Below, piece by piece: positions 7,300-45,644 of a DNA stretch of 47,755 nucleotides (positions are counted from its first letter, which is position 1; the number at the start of each line of letters is the position of its first letter). This stretch comes from a virus. The DNA is taken from positions 1 through 47,755 of the IMG/VR virus record IMGVR_UViG_3300021401_000010. One strand, 5' to 3'. Both the position numbers and the translations under genes were made by a program. The notes under the pieces were generated by a model that saw nothing but the letters and a program-made list of their open reading frames with translations, searched no databases and was not told the origin of the DNA.

Positions 7300-7493
7300 C
7301 GCGGCGGCCCTCCCAGCGGCCTCTGCCGCCTTGCCTCGCGCTCCTGGCGCAGGCTTCTCCGCCGCGCTCCGCTAGGCTTTGCTTCCTCTCCGCGCGGCGC
7401 CAGCGGCAGCCGCACCTCCTGGCGCGCGACCGGCGCTGGCCGGGCATCGCCTCGCCGCCACCAAGCCGCGACCCAGTTAATAAAATCCCTCAC
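7296..7493 (-). CDS. Small basic protein of the neck region
   Basis: This is a 65-residue protein with start MRDFINWVAAWWRRGDARPA. It begins with a GTG in a GTGA overlap and ends in a GTGA overlap, so it fits the coupled gene chain exactly. The N-terminus is Trp-rich and may be an amphipathic or short membrane helix. The remaining 45 residues are very rich in Arg and Pro and probably disordered. I do not recognise a family. Its coupling to the connector and terminator genes suggests co-translation with neck proteins, but the function is unknown. Confidence 0.6.
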   Translation of the reverse strand: MRDFINWVAAWWRRGDARPAPVARQEVRLPLAPRGEEAKPSGARRRSLRQEREARRQRPLGGPPR

Positions 7494-25071: not shown

Positions 25072-26454
25072 TTACTTATTGCTGTAATACTCTTGATTTC
25101 GCTTGTTGATGTCCGCGGGGGTCTTGATCGGGCCCCGCACGCCAGTGCCGCCGCCGTTGCCGATGACCGCCACGTCCGACGTCGTCCGCCGGTTGTTATA
25201 GTCCTTGGCATACCCGCCGACCGCCAGGTACAGGTTGCGCACCGCGTCACAGGTCATTGACTTCAACTCCCGACCAGCCGCAATGCCGTCGATGAACTGC
25301 CGGAACTCCGGCTTCGCATGCGCCAAATCCAGCACAGTCCGCCGGAACTGACAGAGGGCGTCGAAGGTTTTCTTTGGACTTGCCTTGGCATCCACCGTCG
25401 GCACCTGCACGCCGGGGGCGATAGCCTCGGCAAGGGCAATCGTCTCCTGGAAGCTGTCCACCAGGTAAAGGCTGTCCTTGGCACCTTTTGCCTTGTCGCC
25501 CGTTCCCGGAGGCGCCTCCATTTCCAAGTTGCCCTCGATCTTGCGGTTGCCCTCGTCCTCGGTTTCTTTCTTTTTCTTCTCTTCCTCTTCTTCCTTCTCC
25601 GCGTCTTCCATCTTCTTCACGCGGGCGTCAATGGCGTCCACGCTGCCCTTGATATCTTTAATGTCTTTCGCAATGGCGTCCATCGTCTTGCTGTCACCCT
25701 TGCACGCCTTGCAGTCGCAGTCATCCGGGTGCTCTTTATCCCTTGTCAAGATCTTGTTGAGGGTTTTGAGCTGATCTGTCGTCAAGCTCACGGTCTCGCC
25801 CTTGGGAGCCTCAGCCAAAGCAGCGTTAAAGGCCGCCTCGTCCTTGCCCGCAAAAGCAGCTTTCAGCTTCTCTAGCCAAGTCATTGCACAATCCTCCGTT
25901 AAAGTTTTTTTATCACCAATTGAACATCGCGGACCACAGCGGCCAGCTGGGACAAGCGCCAAGTGGTTCGCGATGATGTTATACTGCCTCACCCTTCCTG
26001 GGGTGCCTAGATCTTCGTAATCAGCGTTATACCCGGCAGACACTTCCCTGAGCCCGTTTCGCACTGCCTCAATCTCATCCTTGTTTGTAATAAGAAGATC
26101 CGCCAGGATGACGTCGTCGTCCATCGCCGTTCCGCGCCGTGGGTTCAATACCACACCTGCCGCGAGTTCACGCCAGTTGTGTGGCGTCACGTCCCGCTCA
26201 GGATGCCCCATGCACACGGGCTTGCCCTCAAAGCTCGCGATGGTCTCTGGTCGAAATACGTCTTCAGGACGGCGCTCGGCATAAATCAAGCCATCGGGAC
26301 CTGGGCCAATGTACCCAGCCTCATTCGCAATCTCGCCAGGACCATACACCTGCGTGCCGGTTCTTGCGATGGGTACGGCCTCGCAGCGCAAGAAGCCCTC
26401 GTGGGTTATAACCTGCTTAGCGCTCAGTCGCTCACGGATGTGGTTGTTAATCAC
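25072..26454 (-). CDS. Prohead protease (DUF2213) fused to coiled-coil scaffold-like region
   Basis: This is a 460-residue protein starting at a GTG in GTGA overlap with the portal gene (MINNHIRERLSAKQVITHEG). Residues 1-175 match DUF2213: EGFLRCEAVPIARTGTQVYG, then SFEGKPVCMGHPERDVTPHN, then DVILADLLITNKDEIEAVRN and GLREVSAGYNADYE, the last like prohead protease active regions. Residues about 215-330 are a charged coiled coil with an acidic-lysine run (EDAEKEEEEEKKKKETE) and two CxC/CxxC motifs (DDCDCKACKGD). The C-terminus (about 340-460) resembles scaffold tails (FDALCQFRRTVLDLAHAKPE). Likely a maturation protease with its own scaffolding domain. Confidence 0.75.
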   Translation of the reverse strand: MINNHIRERLSAKQVITHEGFLRCEAVPIARTGTQVYGPGEIANEAGYIGPGPDGLIYAERRPEDVFRPETIASFEGKPVCMGHPERDVTPHNWRELAAGVVLNPRRGTAMDDDVILADLLITNKDEIEAVRNGLREVSAGYNADYEDLGTPGRVRQYNIIANHLALVPAGRCGPRCSIGDKKTLTEDCAMTWLEKLKAAFAGKDEAAFNAALAEAPKGETVSLTTDQLKTLNKILTRDKEHPDDCDCKACKGDSKTMDAIAKDIKDIKGSVDAIDARVKKMEDAEKEEEEEKKKKETEDEGNRKIEGNLEMEAPPGTGDKAKGAKDSLYLVDSFQETIALAEAIAPGVQVPTVDAKASPKKTFDALCQFRRTVLDLAHAKPEFRQFIDGIAAGRELKSMTCDAVRNLYLAVGGYAKDYNNRRTTSDVAVIGNGGGTGVRGPIKTPADINKRNQEYYSNK

Positions 26455-27968
26455 GCTGCCTTCCCGTTCGGCTTCGCCTTTAATTCCTTCTCGCCCCGCG
26501 CCAGCTCCAACTCATGGCTTTCACCGCCCTGTTCTAGCATCTGCTCGGTCTGCGCCTGCTGCATCTGCGCGCCCGTCTCCTCGCTGGCAGCCTTAATGTC
26601 CTCGTCGGTCACGTTAGTAAAGCGCCCGCTGATCTTGCTCAGCTGACGCAGCTCCTTCAGCGCCGTTTGCGGGCTGATAATTCCCGCGTTGTACGCGCCC
26701 GTCACGCTGGTAGCGTCCGTACTCCCGATGCCCGCCTTTTGCTCATCAGACAATACCCACAGGCTGCGAAAGTCTAGCGTAAAGCCCTCGGGCAGCTTAA
26801 TTCCCTCGGACTGCGCCATGGCACGGTAGATGCGCGTCAATGGCACCAGCAGCGTCTGCACCTGCTGCTGCTTAATGCTGTCGTAATATAGCCGCATGTC
26901 ACTCTCGCCCGTGGCGTTCATGCCGACTGGCGACTGGCCGAAGAGCCTTACCAAAGGGATTCCTAAAGCTCCACCAAGCTGCTGGCCCAATTGAATCAAT
27001 GCCTCACTAAGACCAGAGAACGTTGGCGATGGCATGGCCGTGGCCTCGTCCTCCGAGTCTAGCATGGTAATGCCCTCCAGGCTCTGGAACCGGCGCATCA
27101 GGTCCACGTACTGAACGAGCTTGCCCATCATCTCGCCGCCGGCGGCCACGATCTCGCGCATGTTCTTGATGCGCACCACGCGCAGGTACGCCTTGTAGAT
27201 CAGCTGGCTTACTCCCGTGGTGGCGGAGTCAAAGGCCACCATGCGGTCATACAAACGCTCAAGTACCGAGATGCCCCACAGGTTTTCCATCATTCTTTGA
27301 TTGTAGGGCAGCTCAATGCCGTACAGGCGCAGGCAACGGGTATAGTGAATCTTCATTCGCGGCAGGGCAGGGGCATCCGCCACCACGTTGTAGAACTCTG
27401 GCGTGCCCAGGTCCGGGCCAAACTCTCTTACAAGGCGGCTAAGATCCGGGTCCACCATCCAGCGATCCAGCGTCAACAGGCCCTTAAACTGGCCCTTGCC
27501 CACGGTGTCCAGCCTTAAAGGAGTGTCCATCCGCTGGCCGTCGATAAGCATCACGCAGATGCAGCCGCCGTACAGCCGGGCCCACTTGACAGTGTTGTTT
27601 ACCTCGGTCCACACCTTATGGGTGATCGCGGCGCGCTCAAGGTGCTCAATGTCCTCTGGCCTGACGTCGCCGCGCACGTCTACGCCAGCCCGGGTCATGT
27701 CGTCGGCCACCACATTCACAGCCATGCCGCCGAGCCAACTTCCCCGGTAGATCCACTCGAGCAGGATCCTAATTCTACTGATCGGGTTGAAGCCATACCC
27801 GCTGTAGCTGGATAAATTATCGGTGCCAATGCCCAGGTTTGCCGCAAAATTCTGCAGGCTATCCAGTGTTTTCGTGGGCTGGAATCCCGCCTTCTCGGCG
27901 GCCTTAAGGGCACGCTTCTCCTCAGCCTTTGCGCTACGGACGGCGCCCTTGATGGAAATCTTAGCCAT
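26451..27968 (-). CDS. Portal protein (DUF1073 type)
   Basis: This is a 505-residue protein. Residues from about 40 show the DUF1073 portal pattern: LGIGTDNLSSYSGYGFNPIS, then LEWIYRGSWLGGMAVNVVAD and DDMTRAGVDVRGD. The central SDMRLYYDSIKQQQVQTLLV and LIYKAYLRVVRIKNMREIVA segments also fit, as does LGGALGIPLVRLFGQSPVGM. The C-terminal 60 residues are Gln/Glu-rich (MQQAQTEQMLEQGGESHELE). The portal is a dodecameric ring through which DNA is packaged by the terminase. The gene precedes the protease/scaffold gene as expected. It starts MAKISIKGAVRSAKAEEKRA with a basic N-terminus. Confidence 0.9.
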   Translation of the reverse strand: MAKISIKGAVRSAKAEEKRALKAAEKAGFQPTKTLDSLQNFAANLGIGTDNLSSYSGYGFNPISRIRILLEWIYRGSWLGGMAVNVVADDMTRAGVDVRGDVRPEDIEHLERAAITHKVWTEVNNTVKWARLYGGCICVMLIDGQRMDTPLRLDTVGKGQFKGLLTLDRWMVDPDLSRLVREFGPDLGTPEFYNVVADAPALPRMKIHYTRCLRLYGIELPYNQRMMENLWGISVLERLYDRMVAFDSATTGVSQLIYKAYLRVVRIKNMREIVAAGGEMMGKLVQYVDLMRRFQSLEGITMLDSEDEATAMPSPTFSGLSEALIQLGQQLGGALGIPLVRLFGQSPVGMNATGESDMRLYYDSIKQQQVQTLLVPLTRIYRAMAQSEGIKLPEGFTLDFRSLWVLSDEQKAGIGSTDATSVTGAYNAGIISPQTALKELRQLSKISGRFTNVTDEDIKAASEETGAQMQQAQTEQMLEQGGESHELELARGEKELKAKPNGKAA

Positions 27969-29010: not shown

Positions 29011-29352
29011 CTAGCCAGCGCGTTTGCCCCGGCGGTTGTCCCGCATCTCATTCTCGATCAGCTCCAGGCGCTTGTTGAAGCCCTCCAGGCTCTTCACGGC
29101 GCTCCCGGCCATCACGGCCAGGTTGTCCACGATCTGGTCCCGCTGCTGGTTGAGCAGCTCCTGCCCGCGCTTGAAGTCCATGAGGTGCTGCAGTGCCTCG
29201 GTGTTCTGCGTGTGGCGCGAGGTCTGCAGGTCGCGTGCTTCCTGTCTTGAGCGATTGTCCGCGCCCCGGCTGAGCAGGTAGCCCGCTATCGCAACAATCA
29301 GTACGCCCAGGGTTACAAGGTCCCCCTGGTGCCACGTCGGGTCTACTTGCAC
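29011..29352 (-). CDS. Membrane-anchored coiled-coil protein
   Basis: This is a 113-residue protein from a GTG at 29352: MQVDPTWHQGDLVTLGVLIV, AIAGYLLSRGADNRSRQEAR. A membrane segment spans residues 13-28. The remainder is a charged helix likely to form a coiled coil (LLNQQRDQIVDNLAVMAGSA, then VKSLEGFNKRLELIENEMRD). An N-terminal anchor followed by a coiled coil is the shape of inner-membrane spanins and of some class III holins. The neighbourhood of membrane and exported genes suggests lysis, but this is an inference. Confidence 0.55.
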   Translation of the reverse strand: MQVDPTWHQGDLVTLGVLIVAIAGYLLSRGADNRSRQEARDLQTSRHTQNTEALQHLMDFKRGQELLNQQRDQIVDNLAVMAGSAVKSLEGFNKRLELIENEMRDNRRGKRAG

Positions 29353-30028
29353 GGCCAGCGCCTCCGGTACTCGAATTCGGGCTTACGCCCGGCCATTCAT
29401 AAATCGCCTTGCCCCGCCCGCGGAGCCCAGCCTCCTTCTCCCACGCCACGATCCTGATGGGCGCATCGGCGAAGTACACCTTCATGTACGCCTGCTGCGG
29501 CGTAAGGCAGCCCGGCACCACGTCCACCAGGTCCTCGCTTTTCAGCTTTCCGCGCTCGGCGAACGCGGCGCGCAGCAGCGGCAGCCAGTCACCGCGCTTG
29601 TGGTGCTTGCGCGCCCTATACGCCCTTACGGGCTTCTTGCTCAGCTCGTGGGCGCTGGTCTCGCGCCCGAACAGCGTGCGGTCGTACTTGGGCACGTGGG
29701 GCGCATGGCGCATCTGCTGCGGGGTGCCCGGCAGCTGGATCAGGTACTTGACCTGCGCCTCGATGTCCGGCATCAGCAGCCGCCCGCGGCAGTCAGCGCA
29801 AAACCGCTCGCCGTGGTCCTTGCGCAGCGCGGTGCGCACCTCCAGCGGCGGCTTGTTCAGCATCACCGTGAACTCCACTATGTACTCCGCATATACCTCG
29901 GTGGCGGCGAACCGGCGACTGAACGACCTGCCGCATATCTCGCAGTACTTGCGTTCCACCACCAGCGCCCCGGGCGGCACCGCGTGCTCGGTGTAGACGC
30001 TGCCGATGTTGACGCGCTGGGTTGCCAT
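29048..30028 (-). CDS. Zinc-finger-like protein with probable -1 frameshift at its end
   Basis: The frame starts MATQRVNIGSVYTEHAVPPG at 30028 and runs in frame to 29048, but only the part down to about 29395 looks coding. It contains KYCEICGRSFSRRF and ERFCADCRGRLL, a CxxC pair set, and a C-terminal PGCLTPQQAYMKVYFADAPI then RIVAWEKEAGLRGRGKAIYE. After KAIYE the in-frame translation becomes Gly/Arg/Ala-rich noise that overlaps the next gene. One base back, the -1 frame reads MAGRKPEFEYRRRWPCK and stops at 29343, just inside the next gene's start. So the intact product is probably 228 residues. Function unknown; zinc binding is inferred from the Cys pairs. Confidence 0.6.
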   Translation of the reverse strand: MATQRVNIGSVYTEHAVPPGALVVERKYCEICGRSFSRRFAATEVYAEYIVEFTVMLNKPPLEVRTALRKDHGERFCADCRGRLLMPDIEAQVKYLIQLPGTPQQMRHAPHVPKYDRTLFGRETSAHELSKKPVRAYRARKHHKRGDWLPLLRAAFAERGKLKSEDLVDVVPGCLTPQQAYMKVYFADAPIRIVAWEKEAGLRGRGKAIYEWPGVSPNSSTGGAGRASRPDVAPGGPCNPGRTDCCDSGLPAQPGRGQSLKTGSTRPADLAPHAEHRGTAAPHGLQARAGAAQPAAGPDRGQPGRDGRERREEPGGLQQAPGADRE

Positions 30029-30087
30029 TTTAAATCACTGCCCCGTTTGCTTTGCTAGGGACGGGGCCACTCCCAGAGCGTTGGCCG

Positions 30088-30168
30088 CTAGGCCGCCGCG
30101 GCGAAAGCCATCGAGGCCGAAGCCGGGAAAGCGATCACCTTTGCCGTTTTATTGGCGCTTGCATTTGC
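30088..30168 (-). other. tmRNA tag peptide reading frame
   Basis: The proposed resume codon is GCA at 30168-30166. The tag has 26 residues, starts ANASANKTAK and ends SMAFAAAA before TAG. The Ala-rich hydrophobic end fits proteolysis tags (LAA or AAA type). At 26 residues it is longer than most tags. The exact resume codon is inferred; no alternative in-frame stop is present. Confidence 0.7.
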
Positions 30169-30240
30169 GTGTCGTAAGGTGCCACGCCAGCCCTGCCCAT
30201 CCACGTCGCTTGCCAGCACCGTCGAAACCTTGGCACCCCC

Positions 30241-30251
30241 GTTAATTTTGT
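30241..30251 (-). other. Intervening linker between tmRNA acceptor and coding pieces
   Basis: The sequence ACAAAATTAAC joins the encoded CCA end and the mature 5' G. In known permuted tmRNA genes such a short segment is cut out by tRNA-processing enzymes to give two RNAs. Confidence 0.75.
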
Positions 30252-30377
30252 TGGTGGAGGTGGCGGGAATCGAACCCGCGTCCGATACTGTATTGCTACG
30301 CTTCATCTGGGCGAGATTGGGGGCGGCACTGGCTGCGCGCCGCTCCTCCACCAGCCGGTTGTACGTCCGGCAACGCA

Positions 30378-30566
30378 CTAGGCTGCCACCTTCAGCTCGT
30401 ACCGCGCCTGGCGCACTTCGTTACCCTCCAGGTCCACGGTCACCAGCAGCCTGCCTTCCTCGCGCTCAATCTTCACCACGTCGAACTTTACCCGCTTACC
30501 ACGCCCCATAGTGGCGTCCACCTGCTCGCCCAGCTGCAACCACTCACGCAGCGTAAGGCGGCGCAT
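30378..30566 (-). CDS. Small hypothetical protein between terminase and tmRNA
   Basis: This is a 62-residue protein from the ATG at 30566, which follows the terminase stop by 17 bases: MRRLTLREWLQLGEQVDATM, GRGKRVKFDVVKIEREEGRL, LVTVDLEGNEVRQARYELKV, AA. The fold looks like helix then a four-strand beta sheet. Its TAG stop abuts the start of the tmRNA acceptor piece. No family recognised. The open frame extends into the terminase end, which I exclude. Confidence 0.5.
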   Translation of the reverse strand: MRRLTLREWLQLGEQVDATMGRGKRVKFDVVKIEREEGRLLVTVDLEGNEVRQARYELKVAA

Positions 30567-30583
30567 CAATTCCCGTGGGTGGA

Positions 30584-32134
30584 TCACAGCCGGCTCCAGG
30601 CGTCTAATGACCCACCGTCGCCACCTAGCCAAATGGCCGCCTGACTGGTCATGTCCACCATGTCATCGTGCGCGGCGGTCGGGAACATTGTCAGCTGCTG
30701 CACATAAGGTTCCGCCCATGCGGCGTTGCGGTCCACGTACCAGTCGTGCGCCTGCCACTCTGGGGCCATGGCGAACACGCGGGCAATCTTGCCGCCCTGC
30801 GGTTCAATCTCAATTACGCCAGGCAAGTCTTTCTTAAGCGACTGGATCACGGCACTTCCGTTGGCCTTATCTTCCACGAGGATTGCGGACGCCTGTGGAT
30901 AATTGGCCTTTTGATGCCGGATCTCCTTAACAGTACCATCCAGGTCTAGGTGTGCGTTCACCACGTTCAGCACATAGCGCTTTCTGCCTCGTACCCCAAT
31001 CACACCGATCGCAACGTAGTTGCTGGTCTTAAGGTCTTTGAAGCTGCAGTCCACGGTCAACAGGATCCGGCTATACACCGGGTTCCGCACCTGCCCACTC
31101 GCAGGCAGGGGCTCGTCTTGCTCCCCAGTCAGTGGATCTTTACCCCCGTAGTACATGACATCCGCCCGCTTGATCATGTTGCCCTCAAGCGGCGCTGGTC
31201 TTTGCTGATATTGACCCGCAAACACCAGGCGGTTTCTCTTCTTCTCCTCAACCACGTCCGGCGTAAAGCGGTCAGGCTGCAGAACCTCGCCTTTTTTGCG
31301 AGTAATAACCTTACCACTTATCGGGAACACCCACTCCTCATCATCTTCCGCGACCAAGGGCAGCACAAGGTGCTTCCACATGCCCTCAGGGTCCTCACTC
31401 AGCACGAAGCCCGTGGTGTCAAGCTCATGTAGCCGCTGCATGATGATAATGATGGACGCATTGGCCGGGTCATTAAGCCGCTGTCTTAACGTATTGTTCA
31501 CCCAGCGGTTTGCCGTATAGCGCTCAGTGTCTGATAGTGACTGCTCAGAGGACATCGGATCATCCAGGATCGCAGTGTCGCCGCCCTTGCCCTCAGCGCC
31601 TGATCCCGTGGAGGTCGCAATCATGCGCCCCATCTTTGTGTTGTTGAACTGAATCGCAAGGTTCCGATCCTCAGATAGCTGAAACTTATCTCCCCAAAGC
31701 CCCTGATACCACTCGCTGAGTAACAGGTTGCGTCGAGCAACCGAAAAGTCGGTGGCCAGGTCCCGGCTGTGACAAGCACAGAGGAACTCATGGCTTGGCT
31801 GAGTAGCCCACACCCAGCAGGGGAAGCAGATTGTTGCGAAGGTTGTCTTGGCGGAACGGGGCGGAACGTTAAGGATTAGTCGGCGAAGCTTGCGTTCTTT
31901 GACAAGGGTAAGATATTCACAGATAAGATCATAGTGCCAGCTCCACTTAAACTGGCGACCTGGATTCAAAAACTTCCAGGCCTCTCGCACGAAGAGCCCA
32001 AGATCTTGCTCTAATGCCCTGACATAACTACTGTCAGTGTCCTTCTTCAAGGACAGCAGATGATAGAGCTTCTTCTTCTCCTGCGGTGTTGCTACCTCTA
32101 ACAGCTCTTCGACGTCATCAAGCAGCTGGGTCAT
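30584..32134 (-). CDS. terL: Terminase large subunit
   Basis: This is a 516-residue protein. The ATPase has a Walker A variant NVPPRSAKTT at residues 89-98 and Walker B DTAILDDP near 187-193, followed by a motif III-like IIIIMQRLHELDTTG. The RNase H-like nuclease has its acidic residues in RILLTVDCSFKD, AILVEDKANGSAV and HDDMVDMTSQA. The size is typical of the family. It packages DNA through the portal and cuts the concatemer. It overlaps the small subunit gene by 17 bases and is followed by a small gene and the tmRNA, not directly by the portal, which lies 2.6 kb further. Confidence 0.93.
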   Translation of the reverse strand: MTQLLDDVEELLEVATPQEKKKLYHLLSLKKDTDSSYVRALEQDLGLFVREAWKFLNPGRQFKWSWHYDLICEYLTLVKERKLRRLILNVPPRSAKTTFATICFPCWVWATQPSHEFLCACHSRDLATDFSVARRNLLLSEWYQGLWGDKFQLSEDRNLAIQFNNTKMGRMIATSTGSGAEGKGGDTAILDDPMSSEQSLSDTERYTANRWVNNTLRQRLNDPANASIIIIMQRLHELDTTGFVLSEDPEGMWKHLVLPLVAEDDEEWVFPISGKVITRKKGEVLQPDRFTPDVVEEKKRNRLVFAGQYQQRPAPLEGNMIKRADVMYYGGKDPLTGEQDEPLPASGQVRNPVYSRILLTVDCSFKDLKTSNYVAIGVIGVRGRKRYVLNVVNAHLDLDGTVKEIRHQKANYPQASAILVEDKANGSAVIQSLKKDLPGVIEIEPQGGKIARVFAMAPEWQAHDWYVDRNAAWAEPYVQQLTMFPTAAHDDMVDMTSQAAIWLGGDGGSLDAWSRL

Positions 32135-32690
32135 TTTTGCGTTGTCGCAGCTCTTGCAAGAGAGACTTTAGCTCTTCATCTACCTTTTCGCCATCAATCT
32201 TGCCGCTATGCTCAATCTTGTCAGTGAACATCTTGAGATAACGGCCTAGGCGTTCGAGGTTCTGGCCCTTGTCGGCAAGCTTTAGCTTCTTAACATAGCC
32301 AATATGGATCTTATCCTTGCCCACGCCATCAAAGATCTCTGAAACTTCTAGACCGGTAATCGCCATCGCGGTGTTGTCATCAAGTTCCGTTAGTGGCACT
32401 AAGTTCCCGGCGTCATCGAAGAAGTTTGTGGGGCTATAAAAAGCGAGCTTAAATAGCTCTTCCCTTACTCGCTCTTGAGTCACCTCTATCTTGGCGAGGC
32501 GCGCCTGGCACTCTTCAATGATCTCTGGCTGACTTAAGAAACGAAACATCCAGCTCTTGTCCCGACCAAGGACCCGCGCCACACGACGCATGTTAAAGTC
32601 CTTCAGGTACTCCGTGATAATCTTTTCCTTTAGAAACTCAGGAGGATTCGGAGTAAGTTCAGTAGCCACGTTTGGCCACCTGGCAGGCAT
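32118..32690 (-). CDS. Terminase small subunit (putative)
   Basis: This 190-residue protein lies directly upstream of the large terminase gene and overlaps it. The N-terminal half has a helix-turn-helix-like DNA-binding pattern: KEKIITEYLKDFNMRRVARV then LGRDKSWMFRFLSQ. A long helix, IEECQARLAKIEVTQERVRE, follows, and then the common LFKLAFYSPTNFFDD and a C-terminal coiled part (GRYLKMFTDKIEHSGKIDGE). This matches small terminase subunits that recognise packaging sites. The ATG at 32690 is used; a GTG at 32669 with a better AGGTGG site would remove seven residues. Confidence 0.75.
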   Translation of the reverse strand: MPARWPNVATELTPNPPEFLKEKIITEYLKDFNMRRVARVLGRDKSWMFRFLSQPEIIEECQARLAKIEVTQERVREELFKLAFYSPTNFFDDAGNLVPLTELDDNTAMAITGLEVSEIFDGVGKDKIHIGYVKKLKLADKGQNLERLGRYLKMFTDKIEHSGKIDGEKVDEELKSLLQELRQRKNDPAA

Positions 32691-39701: not shown

Positions 39702-40303
39702 CCCTCCGTGAGGAGATGCGCCTGCTGCGCCGGGCCGTGCTGGCGAAGGCCGTGGCCGAGGCGGGGGGCAACCTGAGCCTGGCGGCGCGGCGGCTGGACG
39801 TGCACCGCAACACGCTGGGGCGGCTGTGCGAGGCCGCGGGCGTGGACTACCCCGCCCACCGCGGTGGCGCCCGCAAGGGAGTGGAGTACAGGAGGGAAAG
39901 AACGCTTATGAACCTGGAAGAACGGGCAACACCGGCAAGGCAACGCCTGCCCCCCACGCGGGCGGGCGCGACGCACAAGTTTACCGTGGGCGGGGTGCGC
40001 GGGTACGTGACGGTGAACGAGTACGAGGACGGCAGGCCGGGCGAGCTGTTCCTGCGGCTGGACAAGGTGGGCAGCGCCACGCGCGGCTGGACGGACGCGT
40101 TCTCGATCGCATTTTCGATGCTATTACAGGGAGGAGCCTCTCTTAAGGGGTTAATAGATAAGTTTCGTGCTACTCGATTTGAACCGGCTGGGGTGACCGG
40201 GAATCCAGAGATCGGAATATGTACGTCAGTACTTGACTATGTGATGAGATGGCTAGAATTAAGATACTTAAAGGAGAAGACTAATGGTGCTCAAAAAGCC
40301 TAA
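39698..40303 (+). CDS. Fis-type HTH fused to a TSCPD domain
   Basis: This is a 201-residue protein from a GTG in GTGA overlap. Residues 4-50 form a Fis/NtrC-type helix-turn-helix: REEMRLLRRAVLAKAVAEAG then GNLSLAARRLDVHRNTLGRL. Residues 85-190 match the TSCPD domain found at the C-terminus of class II ribonucleotide reductases and as stand-alone phage proteins: TVGGVRGYVTVNEYEDGRPG, ELFLRLDKVGSATRGWTDAF and GICTSVLDYVMRWLELRYL. A strong AGGAGGG precedes the internal ATG at 39908, so a shorter TSCPD-only protein may also be made. No reductase gene is visible. Its role may be DNA binding linked to nucleotide metabolism, inferred. Confidence 0.65.
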   Translation: MTLREEMRLLRRAVLAKAVAEAGGNLSLAARRLDVHRNTLGRLCEAAGVDYPAHRGGARKGVEYRRERTLMNLEERATPARQRLPPTRAGATHKFTVGGVRGYVTVNEYEDGRPGELFLRLDKVGSATRGWTDAFSIAFSMLLQGGASLKGLIDKFRATRFEPAGVTGNPEIGICTSVLDYVMRWLELRYLKEKTNGAQKA

Positions 40304-40907
40304 AACACTACTGGCCAGCCAGGAGTCCGTCGAGGAGTGCAAGCGGCGGCTGGACAAGGTGGAGGCCCGGGGCCTGGAGTTCTTGTTCCTCGACCGCAGC
40401 GACGAGGCCACGCGGCTGCTGGGCAACTTCGTCTTTGACCATGCGCCGGTGCCGCCGTCAGCGCAGGACAACAGCTTTAGCAACTGGCTGCTGGTCTCGG
40501 CGCTGTGCGTGACGGTGATGGCGGGCGGGCTGCTGTTCAGGAGCCTAGAGACGAGCCTGGCCGACCTGGGCAAGCGAGTGGCCGCGCAGGAGGCGCGTGC
40601 GTTCGCGCCGACCGCCCCCGCGGTGGCGATGGACACAGCCATACCGAACATAGCTCATATCCCGGACATCTTCCTCGACCTGGATCAGCGCTGCTGGCTT
40701 CAAATTACGGACGGCGGCGGCAAAGTGCTAATGGCGGACTTCGTGCCCGCTGGCCGCCGCGAGGCCGCGCCGGGGGCAAAGCTGCCAATTACCGTCCGCG
40801 ACGGCTGCCCGGGCCACGTGGCCTTCACGGTGGACGGCAGGGCGGTGGATCCGCCCCGCGAGCCGGGGCACGCGGAGAATAAGGTGGAAGTGGTGGTGCT
40901 GCCGTGA
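40284..40907 (+). CDS. Single-pass membrane protein with RodZ-C-terminal-like domain (DUF4115)
   Basis: This is a 207-residue protein. Residues 1-60 are cytoplasmic and helical (ESVEECKRRLDKVEARGLEF). Residues about 67-85 are a membrane segment (NWLLVSALCVTVMAGGLLFR). A periplasmic linker (SLETSLADLGKRVAAQEARA) and a beta domain with CWLQITDGGGKVLMADFVPA, REAAPGAKLPITVRDGCPGH and VAFTVDGRAVDPP follow. That domain matches the C-terminal domain of the bacterial cell-shape protein RodZ. The gene overlaps the previous one by 20 bases and has an AAGGAG site. It may act on host envelope assembly, which is inferred. Confidence 0.6.
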   Translation: MVLKKPKTLLASQESVEECKRRLDKVEARGLEFLFLDRSDEATRLLGNFVFDHAPVPPSAQDNSFSNWLLVSALCVTVMAGGLLFRSLETSLADLGKRVAAQEARAFAPTAPAVAMDTAIPNIAHIPDIFLDLDQRCWLQITDGGGKVLMADFVPAGRREAAPGAKLPITVRDGCPGHVAFTVDGRAVDPPREPGHAENKVEVVVLP

Positions 40908-45031: not shown

Positions 45032-45222
45032 AAGTTCTCGGCGAGCTCGAGGTTCGGTGCGCAAGCCACGCAACCACCTTCATTGAGGGTTGCGCGGCTT
45101 GCCTTTTTCTTAATCAACTCGAGGGTAATCTTCTGAGACTCAAGGAACAAAGATTGAAGCTGGTTGCCGAACTTGAGAAAAGACTACTGGACAAGTCAGT
45201 GATTGCGCAGAGGATAAAATGA
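45028..45222 (+). CDS. Small Cys/His protein with coiled coil
   Basis: This is a 64-residue protein from a GTG in GTGA overlap: MKVLGELEVRCASHATTFIE, GCAACLFLNQLEGNLLRLKE. C-x2-H and CAAC make a possible zinc site. The second half is a helix (QRLKLVAELEKRLLDKSVIA). It ends in ATGA with the phosphatase gene. Function unknown. Confidence 0.5.
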   Translation: MKVLGELEVRCASHATTFIEGCAACLFLNQLEGNLLRLKEQRLKLVAELEKRLLDKSVIAQRIK

Positions 45223-45644
45223 TCCAACAAGTTGAAGGGAACGTTTATCGGGGTCCGCGACCTCAGCCGCCTTATATCGGAATACGCGAGCTGTTCGCGC
45301 GCGTGATCAGCCTGGAGGGTCTGGCAGAGGACATCAAGGAGCAGCGCGAGTTGAGCCCTGTATGGGTGCTTTCCGAGCCCATCACGTTCTCGCAGATCTA
45401 CTTTACTGGCATCTCGCAGGCGAAGCTGGACTTGATCATAAAGAAGATCGAGACGGCAGCCACGTGGGGCAAGGTGCTGGTGCACTGCGAGCACGGCGAG
45501 GACCGCACGGGGCTGGCCATCGCCGCGTGGCGGGTGCGCGCTTGCAAGTGGACCAAGGAGGCCGCCATGGCCGAGGCGCTGGACCATGGCTACCGGCGGT
45601 GGCTGAACTTCGGGCTGAATAAGACCTGGGCGGCGTTCCAGTGA
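45219..45644 (+). CDS. CX5R protein phosphatase (dual-specificity type)
   Basis: This is a 141-residue protein. The phosphatase loop is HCEHGEDRTG (residues 89-98) with Cys90 and Arg96, preceded by GKVLVHC and followed by LAIAAWRVRACKWTKEAAMA. This is the cysteine-dependent dual-specificity phosphatase pattern. The N-terminus (MIQQVEGNVYRGPRPQPPYI) matches the entry VYRSxxP motif of small phosphatases. It removes phosphate from proteins, RNA 5' ends or small molecules; the substrate cannot be told. Host-phage signalling or nucleic acid end processing are options. Confidence 0.75.
   Translation: MIQQVEGNVYRGPRPQPPYIGIRELFARVISLEGLAEDIKEQRELSPVWVLSEPITFSQIYFTGISQAKLDLIIKKIETAATWGKVLVHCEHGEDRTGLAIAAWRVRACKWTKEAAMAEALDHGYRRWLNFGLNKTWAAFQ

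Follow-up and report, generated by a model that had tools for sequence, protein, structure and literature searches.

A permuted tmRNA cassette between the terminase and portal genes of a contractile-tailed phage

The 47,755-bp IMG/VR virus record analyzed here (the window) was found to carry a permuted tmRNA (ssrA) cassette at 30039–30375 (−), as defined by ARAGORN, by the Rfam family RF04321, by a block shared with another phage locus (L113) and by its absence from a close relative (L008). Its anatomy is complete, its substitutions preserve structure, the relative has an empty site at the same position, and the cassette recurs in an unrelated phage. We consider it probable that the RNA is a functional, phage-borne two-piece tmRNA, which would be made on a late transcript, cut by the host, charged with alanine and used with host SmpB to add a 24-residue degron tag. 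Of particular note is its membership in a divergent clade of phage tmRNAs, the majority of which miss all three clade-specific tmRNA models; its lineage is poorly described.

ARAGORN, run on the window, reported a permuted tmRNA ("tmRNA*") at 29997–30344 (−). The full-length RF04321 model (tmRNA_permuted) aligned to 30312–30088 (−) at 85.3 bits (E = 4.7e-15), above its cut-off of 47; no other Rfam family exceeded its threshold in the window. The original prediction had proposed ARAGORN and the alpha, beta and cyano models as checks; ARAGORN returned the gene, as did RF04321, whereas none of the three clade models reached its cut-off. Alpha_tmRNA (RF01849) and cyano_tmRNA (RF01851) were not listed for it at the gathering threshold, and beta_tmRNA (RF01850) scored 59.1 bits, over the tRNA-like part only, short of its cut-off of 84. 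Because these cut-offs were all missed and that of RF04321 was reached, the window tmRNA is permuted but is none of the three named types.

The T arm, CCA, 11-nt spacer, mature 5′ end and frame ending in AAAA-stop were all located where they had been predicted, and the predicted extent (30377–30041) agrees almost exactly with the L113-shared block (30375–30039). The RNA opens with the 5′ hairpin of the acceptor piece, GCGGCGC...GUGCCGC (30323–30343 (−); arms 30343–30337 and 30329–30323), followed by the 5′ arm of a long-range helix that joins the two future pieces (30195–30312 (−); arms about 30312–30283 and 30221–30195). This helix is based on the RF04321 alignment, the minimum-energy fold and a compensatory change in L113. 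The next element (30252–30284 (−)), defined by sequence, RF04321 and covariation, comprises the T arm GCGGG-UUCGAUU-CCCGC (30279–30263) and CACCUCC-A-CCA (30262–30252), the acceptor 3′ strand with an encoded CCA. It is followed by the spacer ACAAAATTAAC (11 nt, 30241–30251 (−), read from the sequence), an intervening sequence which is expected to be removed from the RNA, and whose length and sequence vary among tmRNA copies. The mature 5′ end of the coding piece, GGGGGUGCCAAGGUUUCGAC (30221–30240 (−); sequence and RF04321), contains the acceptor 5′ strand GGGGGUG and the D-like GGUUUCGAC loop, and leads through the 3′ arm of the long helix and the tag frame to a 3′ hairpin, GCCCCGU...ACGGGGC (30040–30067 (−)), which was located by sequence, minimum-energy folding and comparison with L113, where it is kept. 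The order is therefore permuted, the 3′ tRNA-like half with its CCA preceding the 5′ half and a short spacer separating the two. The acceptor stem forms the predicted seven base pairs, including the alanine identity pair, G3-U70. A putative GGGA/UCCC pairing, read from the sequence and invariant, would turn the 3′ hairpin into a pseudoknot, which it probably forms.

A further complementary segment lies upstream of the acceptor piece, where UGGUGGAGG (30353–30345) is fully complementary to the acceptor end CCUCCACCA (30260–30252). The pairing is an exact 9 bp in the window and L113 only, is 8 bp at a similar distance in a third locus (L126), and is contained in the minimum-energy fold of L113; in the precursor, it might form at the expense of the acceptor stem.

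In the comparison of 14 related phage copies, every cell (100%) of the T and acceptor stems is paired, including 14 double-changed cells, a degree of double-changed pairing that was reached in none of 500 shuffles. Four stem pairs are altered on both sides across the group. The search pattern fixed several stem positions and left the varying positions free; G3-U70, found in 14/14 copies, was one of the pairs that the pattern itself fixed on both sides. Between the window and L113, compensatory changes were observed in the long helix (30299/30205, G-C to A-U) and in the T arm (30279/30263, G-C to U-A), the other core changes mostly keep pairing, and the 5′ hairpin retains 7 bp in both, with two one-sided changes that still pair. 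Unconstrained minimum-energy folding of the whole precursor recovered the T arm, the acceptor stem and the long helix. The folding energy is ordinary for the base composition (z = −0.16) and was discarded as evidence, so that support for the tmRNA comes from sequence and covariation rather than from stability.

The tag frame called by ARAGORN, ASANKTAKVIAFPASASMAFAAAA* (24 aa, 30088–30162 (−)), closes with GCC GCG GCG GCC TAG, giving the peptide end AFAAAA*, a small, hydrophobic C-terminus followed by a stop as in RF04321-type tags. The tag starts with ASANK, in contrast to AND or ANN, and is longer than the commonest tag length of 10 (PMC11915505). The L113 tag, ATANKMAKLFVIPAPALMVTAAAA, keeps both the 24-aa length and the AAAA end, with an altered middle. 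A K-V/L-I/L-x-F-P-like core is common to the window tag and to the 26–33-aa tags of three same-clade sets, L093, L099/L133 and L135 (AKVIAFP, NKVIPFP, AKVLAFP and AKLLTFP). The tag frame is part of a longer open frame of 96 codons (30378–30088 (−)), which runs from the stop of the upstream gene (TAGTG) through the RNA to the tag stop and could be read as a protein-coding gene. However, substitutions relative to L113 in the part preceding the tag are distributed evenly among the codon positions (7/7/9), and the frame is not conserved in L113, being interrupted there by a stop; a protein gene was accordingly rejected as extremely improbable.

The nearest relative of the window phage, L008 (TerL 78% and portal 69% identical), retains both ORFs that flank the tmRNA: the small upstream ORF (30378–30632 (−); 43% identity over 69 aa) and, in its N-terminal part, the downstream ORF (29048–30028 (−); 54% over 26 aa). 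In L008, the upstream stop overlaps the next start (TAGTG) with no tmRNA between them. The same TAGTG is present in the window, where the tmRNA comes next and the downstream ORF begins at 30028. Since the flanking ORFs abut in L008, about 349 bp were cleanly inserted in the window. None of nine records of TerL relatives, several of which are fragments, has an RF04321 match, which indicates that the tmRNA is not essential to this phage group. A SAM-I/IV riboswitch match was also observed near TerL on one phage contig (L005, 3831–3939).

The second copy, in L113 (IMGVR_UViG_3300027908_000037, from a 39,998-bp contig), is 84% identical over 346 nt to window 30375–30039. No other homology to the window, in DNA or protein, was detected in the 10.5 kb of L113 compared, and no TerL match was found in the whole L113 contig. 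There the tmRNA is flanked by a small ORF on one side and a helix-turn-helix gene on the other, and the homology takes in the final codons of the preceding gene, suggesting derivation of the window copy from an L113-like setting. ARAGORN also called tRNAs with CUA anticodons on the contig carrying L113 (L148, 17158–17396), which are possible amber suppressors. Recoding of TAG in L113, which these calls suggested, was not supported, as the gain in ORF coverage on TAG read-through was about equal to the window's own.

Host-derived ssrA pieces are known in phages (PMC9004378), and with 0/9 TerL-relative records carrying a tmRNA, the gene might be a recently acquired host ssrA that is not under selection. 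This passenger explanation is considered unlikely, because both halves are intact, the substitutions relative to L113 mostly keep base pairs, the same cassette occurs in two unrelated phages, and the contig contains no tyrosine integrase; the last result also led us to reject an origin at an integration site. A search of 398 Pseudomonadota genomes (E 1e-13) returned no cellular source, a result obtained without a positive control and not proof of absence. In plasmids and phage records, the matches were short and confined to the neighbourhood of the T-arm/acceptor core, and an exact pattern of the window's own sequence had no match in IMG/VR.

The minus strand of the window encodes TerS (32118–32690; phrog_51, E = 1.9e-10), TerL (30584–32134; phrog_38, E = 6e-93), the portal protein (26451–27968; phrog_146, E = 1.1e-117), a head maturation protease, the major head protein and the tail sheath, whereas a primase/helicase-like protein and an SNF2-type helicase are encoded on the plus strand. 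The plus strand also encodes a RodZ C-terminal-domain protein (40284–40907) and a dual-specificity phosphatase-like protein (45219–45644), whose match falls short of the curated cut-off. The tmRNA lies on the late-gene strand between TerL, with one small ORF intervening, and an unannotated ORF that precedes the portal gene. The proposal of a phage-encoded permuted tmRNA in a packaging and structural cluster was thus borne out by ARAGORN, RF04321 and the phrog-annotated neighbours. As to its position, the shared strand and the adjoining terminase were as predicted, but no lysis homology could be detected in the supposed lysis-like neighbours. A search of the tmRNA's strand gave no adjoining site resembling a promoter or terminator, so the RNA is probably processed out of a late transcript.

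Its transcription, cleavage, alanine charging and use of SmpB, and any gain to the phage, are inferred by analogy with two-piece tmRNAs. The RNA would form part of the packaging/structural transcript, from which host tRNA-processing enzymes would release an acceptor piece and a coding piece that remain joined by base pairing. Following charging by host alanyl-tRNA synthetase, it would work with host SmpB to rescue ribosomes held up on damaged or incomplete mRNAs, and the 24-aa tag that it appends would have its hydrophobic/alanine degron end recognized by host proteases. An ordinary trans-translation role is likely, and might provide rescue capacity, perhaps with a phage-specific tag, during late expression. 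The functional reading draws on the full-length RF04321 match, the open tag frame, G3-U70 and covariation, on the tag length and AAAA end kept in L113, on the strand shared with terminase and portal, on the precedent of phage two-piece tmRNAs (PMC9004378), and on the lack of an adjacent promoter- or terminator-like site, which fits co-transcription. The nine TerL-relative records, the tag longer than 10 residues and the lack of an SmpB gene in the contig were counted against it; because of the latter, tmRNA function depends on the host. The missing SmpB would also suit a decoy whose main action is to bind host SmpB or alanyl-tRNA synthetase, thereby damping host trans-translation, and inhibition of host tmRNA by a phage tmRNA fragment has precedent (PMC4131195, PMC11915505). 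Such a decoy, however, needs neither a complete tag frame, nor a length and AAAA-stop matched in L113, nor a conserved 3′ hairpin, all of which are present, and we regard it as quite unlikely.

A pattern consisting of the T arm, CTCCACCA, a 3–33-nt spacer and the 5′ half identified permuted tmRNAs on 106 IMG/VR contigs, in about 59 sequence clusters. The commonest large neighbour gene encodes a phage single-strand DNA binding protein family (7/61 proteins), in keeping with the T4-like phages of PMC9004378. In L126 and L099/L133 (TerS and TerL) and in L135 (TerL), the tmRNA is closely followed on its own strand by terminase genes; with at least three clusters besides the window, a location among packaging genes recurs, although in a minority of cases. 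Together with the 53 published cases (PMC9004378), these numbers make the arrangement less novel than originally claimed. One phage permuted tmRNA (L083, 6136–6524), with a 30-aa tag, adjoins a phage groEL gene, and another, in L087, lies beside several tRNA matches on a locus with a type-P5 twister ribozyme match (7310–7367).

In a FastTree phylogeny of cluster representatives (midpoint rooted, with poorly supported internal nodes), the window and L113 were grouped (support 1.0) inside a group of 14 (support 0.95). None of the tags in this group starts with AND, and all the terminase-adjacent copies found are included in it. All 14 members passed RF04321. No clade-specific cut-off was reached by the window, L113, L135, L093, L099, L125, L070, L019, L079 or L095, and one was just reached by each of L126, L012, L087 and L094. 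These findings point to a clade of phage permuted tmRNAs that is mostly missed by clade-specific models. It is a speculative possibility that these copies represent an additional permuted lineage besides the alpha, beta and cyano types, spread among environmental phages in the form of a compact cassette with unusual tags and repeated terminase-adjacent placement, and that its phage-specific degradation tag serves late virion protein synthesis. For a phage ribosome-rescue RNA, an occupied site, its empty counterpart and a copy in another phage are now at hand; with the clade, they set the stage for asking whether a phage's own tag comes into use in late infection.

The tmRNAs of mycobacteriophages Bxz1 and Wildcat and of Bacillus phage G have the standard gene order. 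They resemble the window tmRNA in being phage-borne ssrA genes, and were listed early (PMC4131195). Mycobacteriophage DS6A carries a tag-less tmRNA, a proposed inhibitor of host tmRNA (PMC4131195, PMC11915505). In a survey, tmRNA was found in 402 of 18,146 phage genomes; 133 were unique and 53 were called two-piece, 50 of these from marine or aquatic samples (PMC9004378); permuted tmRNAs in phages are thus already published. A list of 79 unique phage tmRNAs accompanied the introduction of RF04321 (PMC11915505). A partial literature search found no description of a tmRNA between terminase and portal genes, or of such cassette sharing. RF04321 members of Alphaproteobacteria, Betaproteobacteria and Cyanobacteria share with the window the T arm and CCA before the 5′ end, the short spacer, the G3-U70 acceptor stem, the GGUUUCGAC loop and an open tag frame with an alanine end. 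The window differs from these types in missing the three clade cut-offs, in its 24-aa ASANK tag, as opposed to AND/ANN, and in its phage packaging-cluster site. Methylophilales phage Melnitz and pelagimyophages likewise encode permuted tmRNAs (PMC9004378), but that of Melnitz, a T4-like phage, is of the SAR11 type and lies upstream of a transcription coactivator gene, whereas the window tmRNA lies beside terminase, and the terminase and portal are of other families. A close counterpart is the L113 tmRNA, which resembles that of the window in sequence and has the same tag length and AAAA end, in a phage with no other gene in common.
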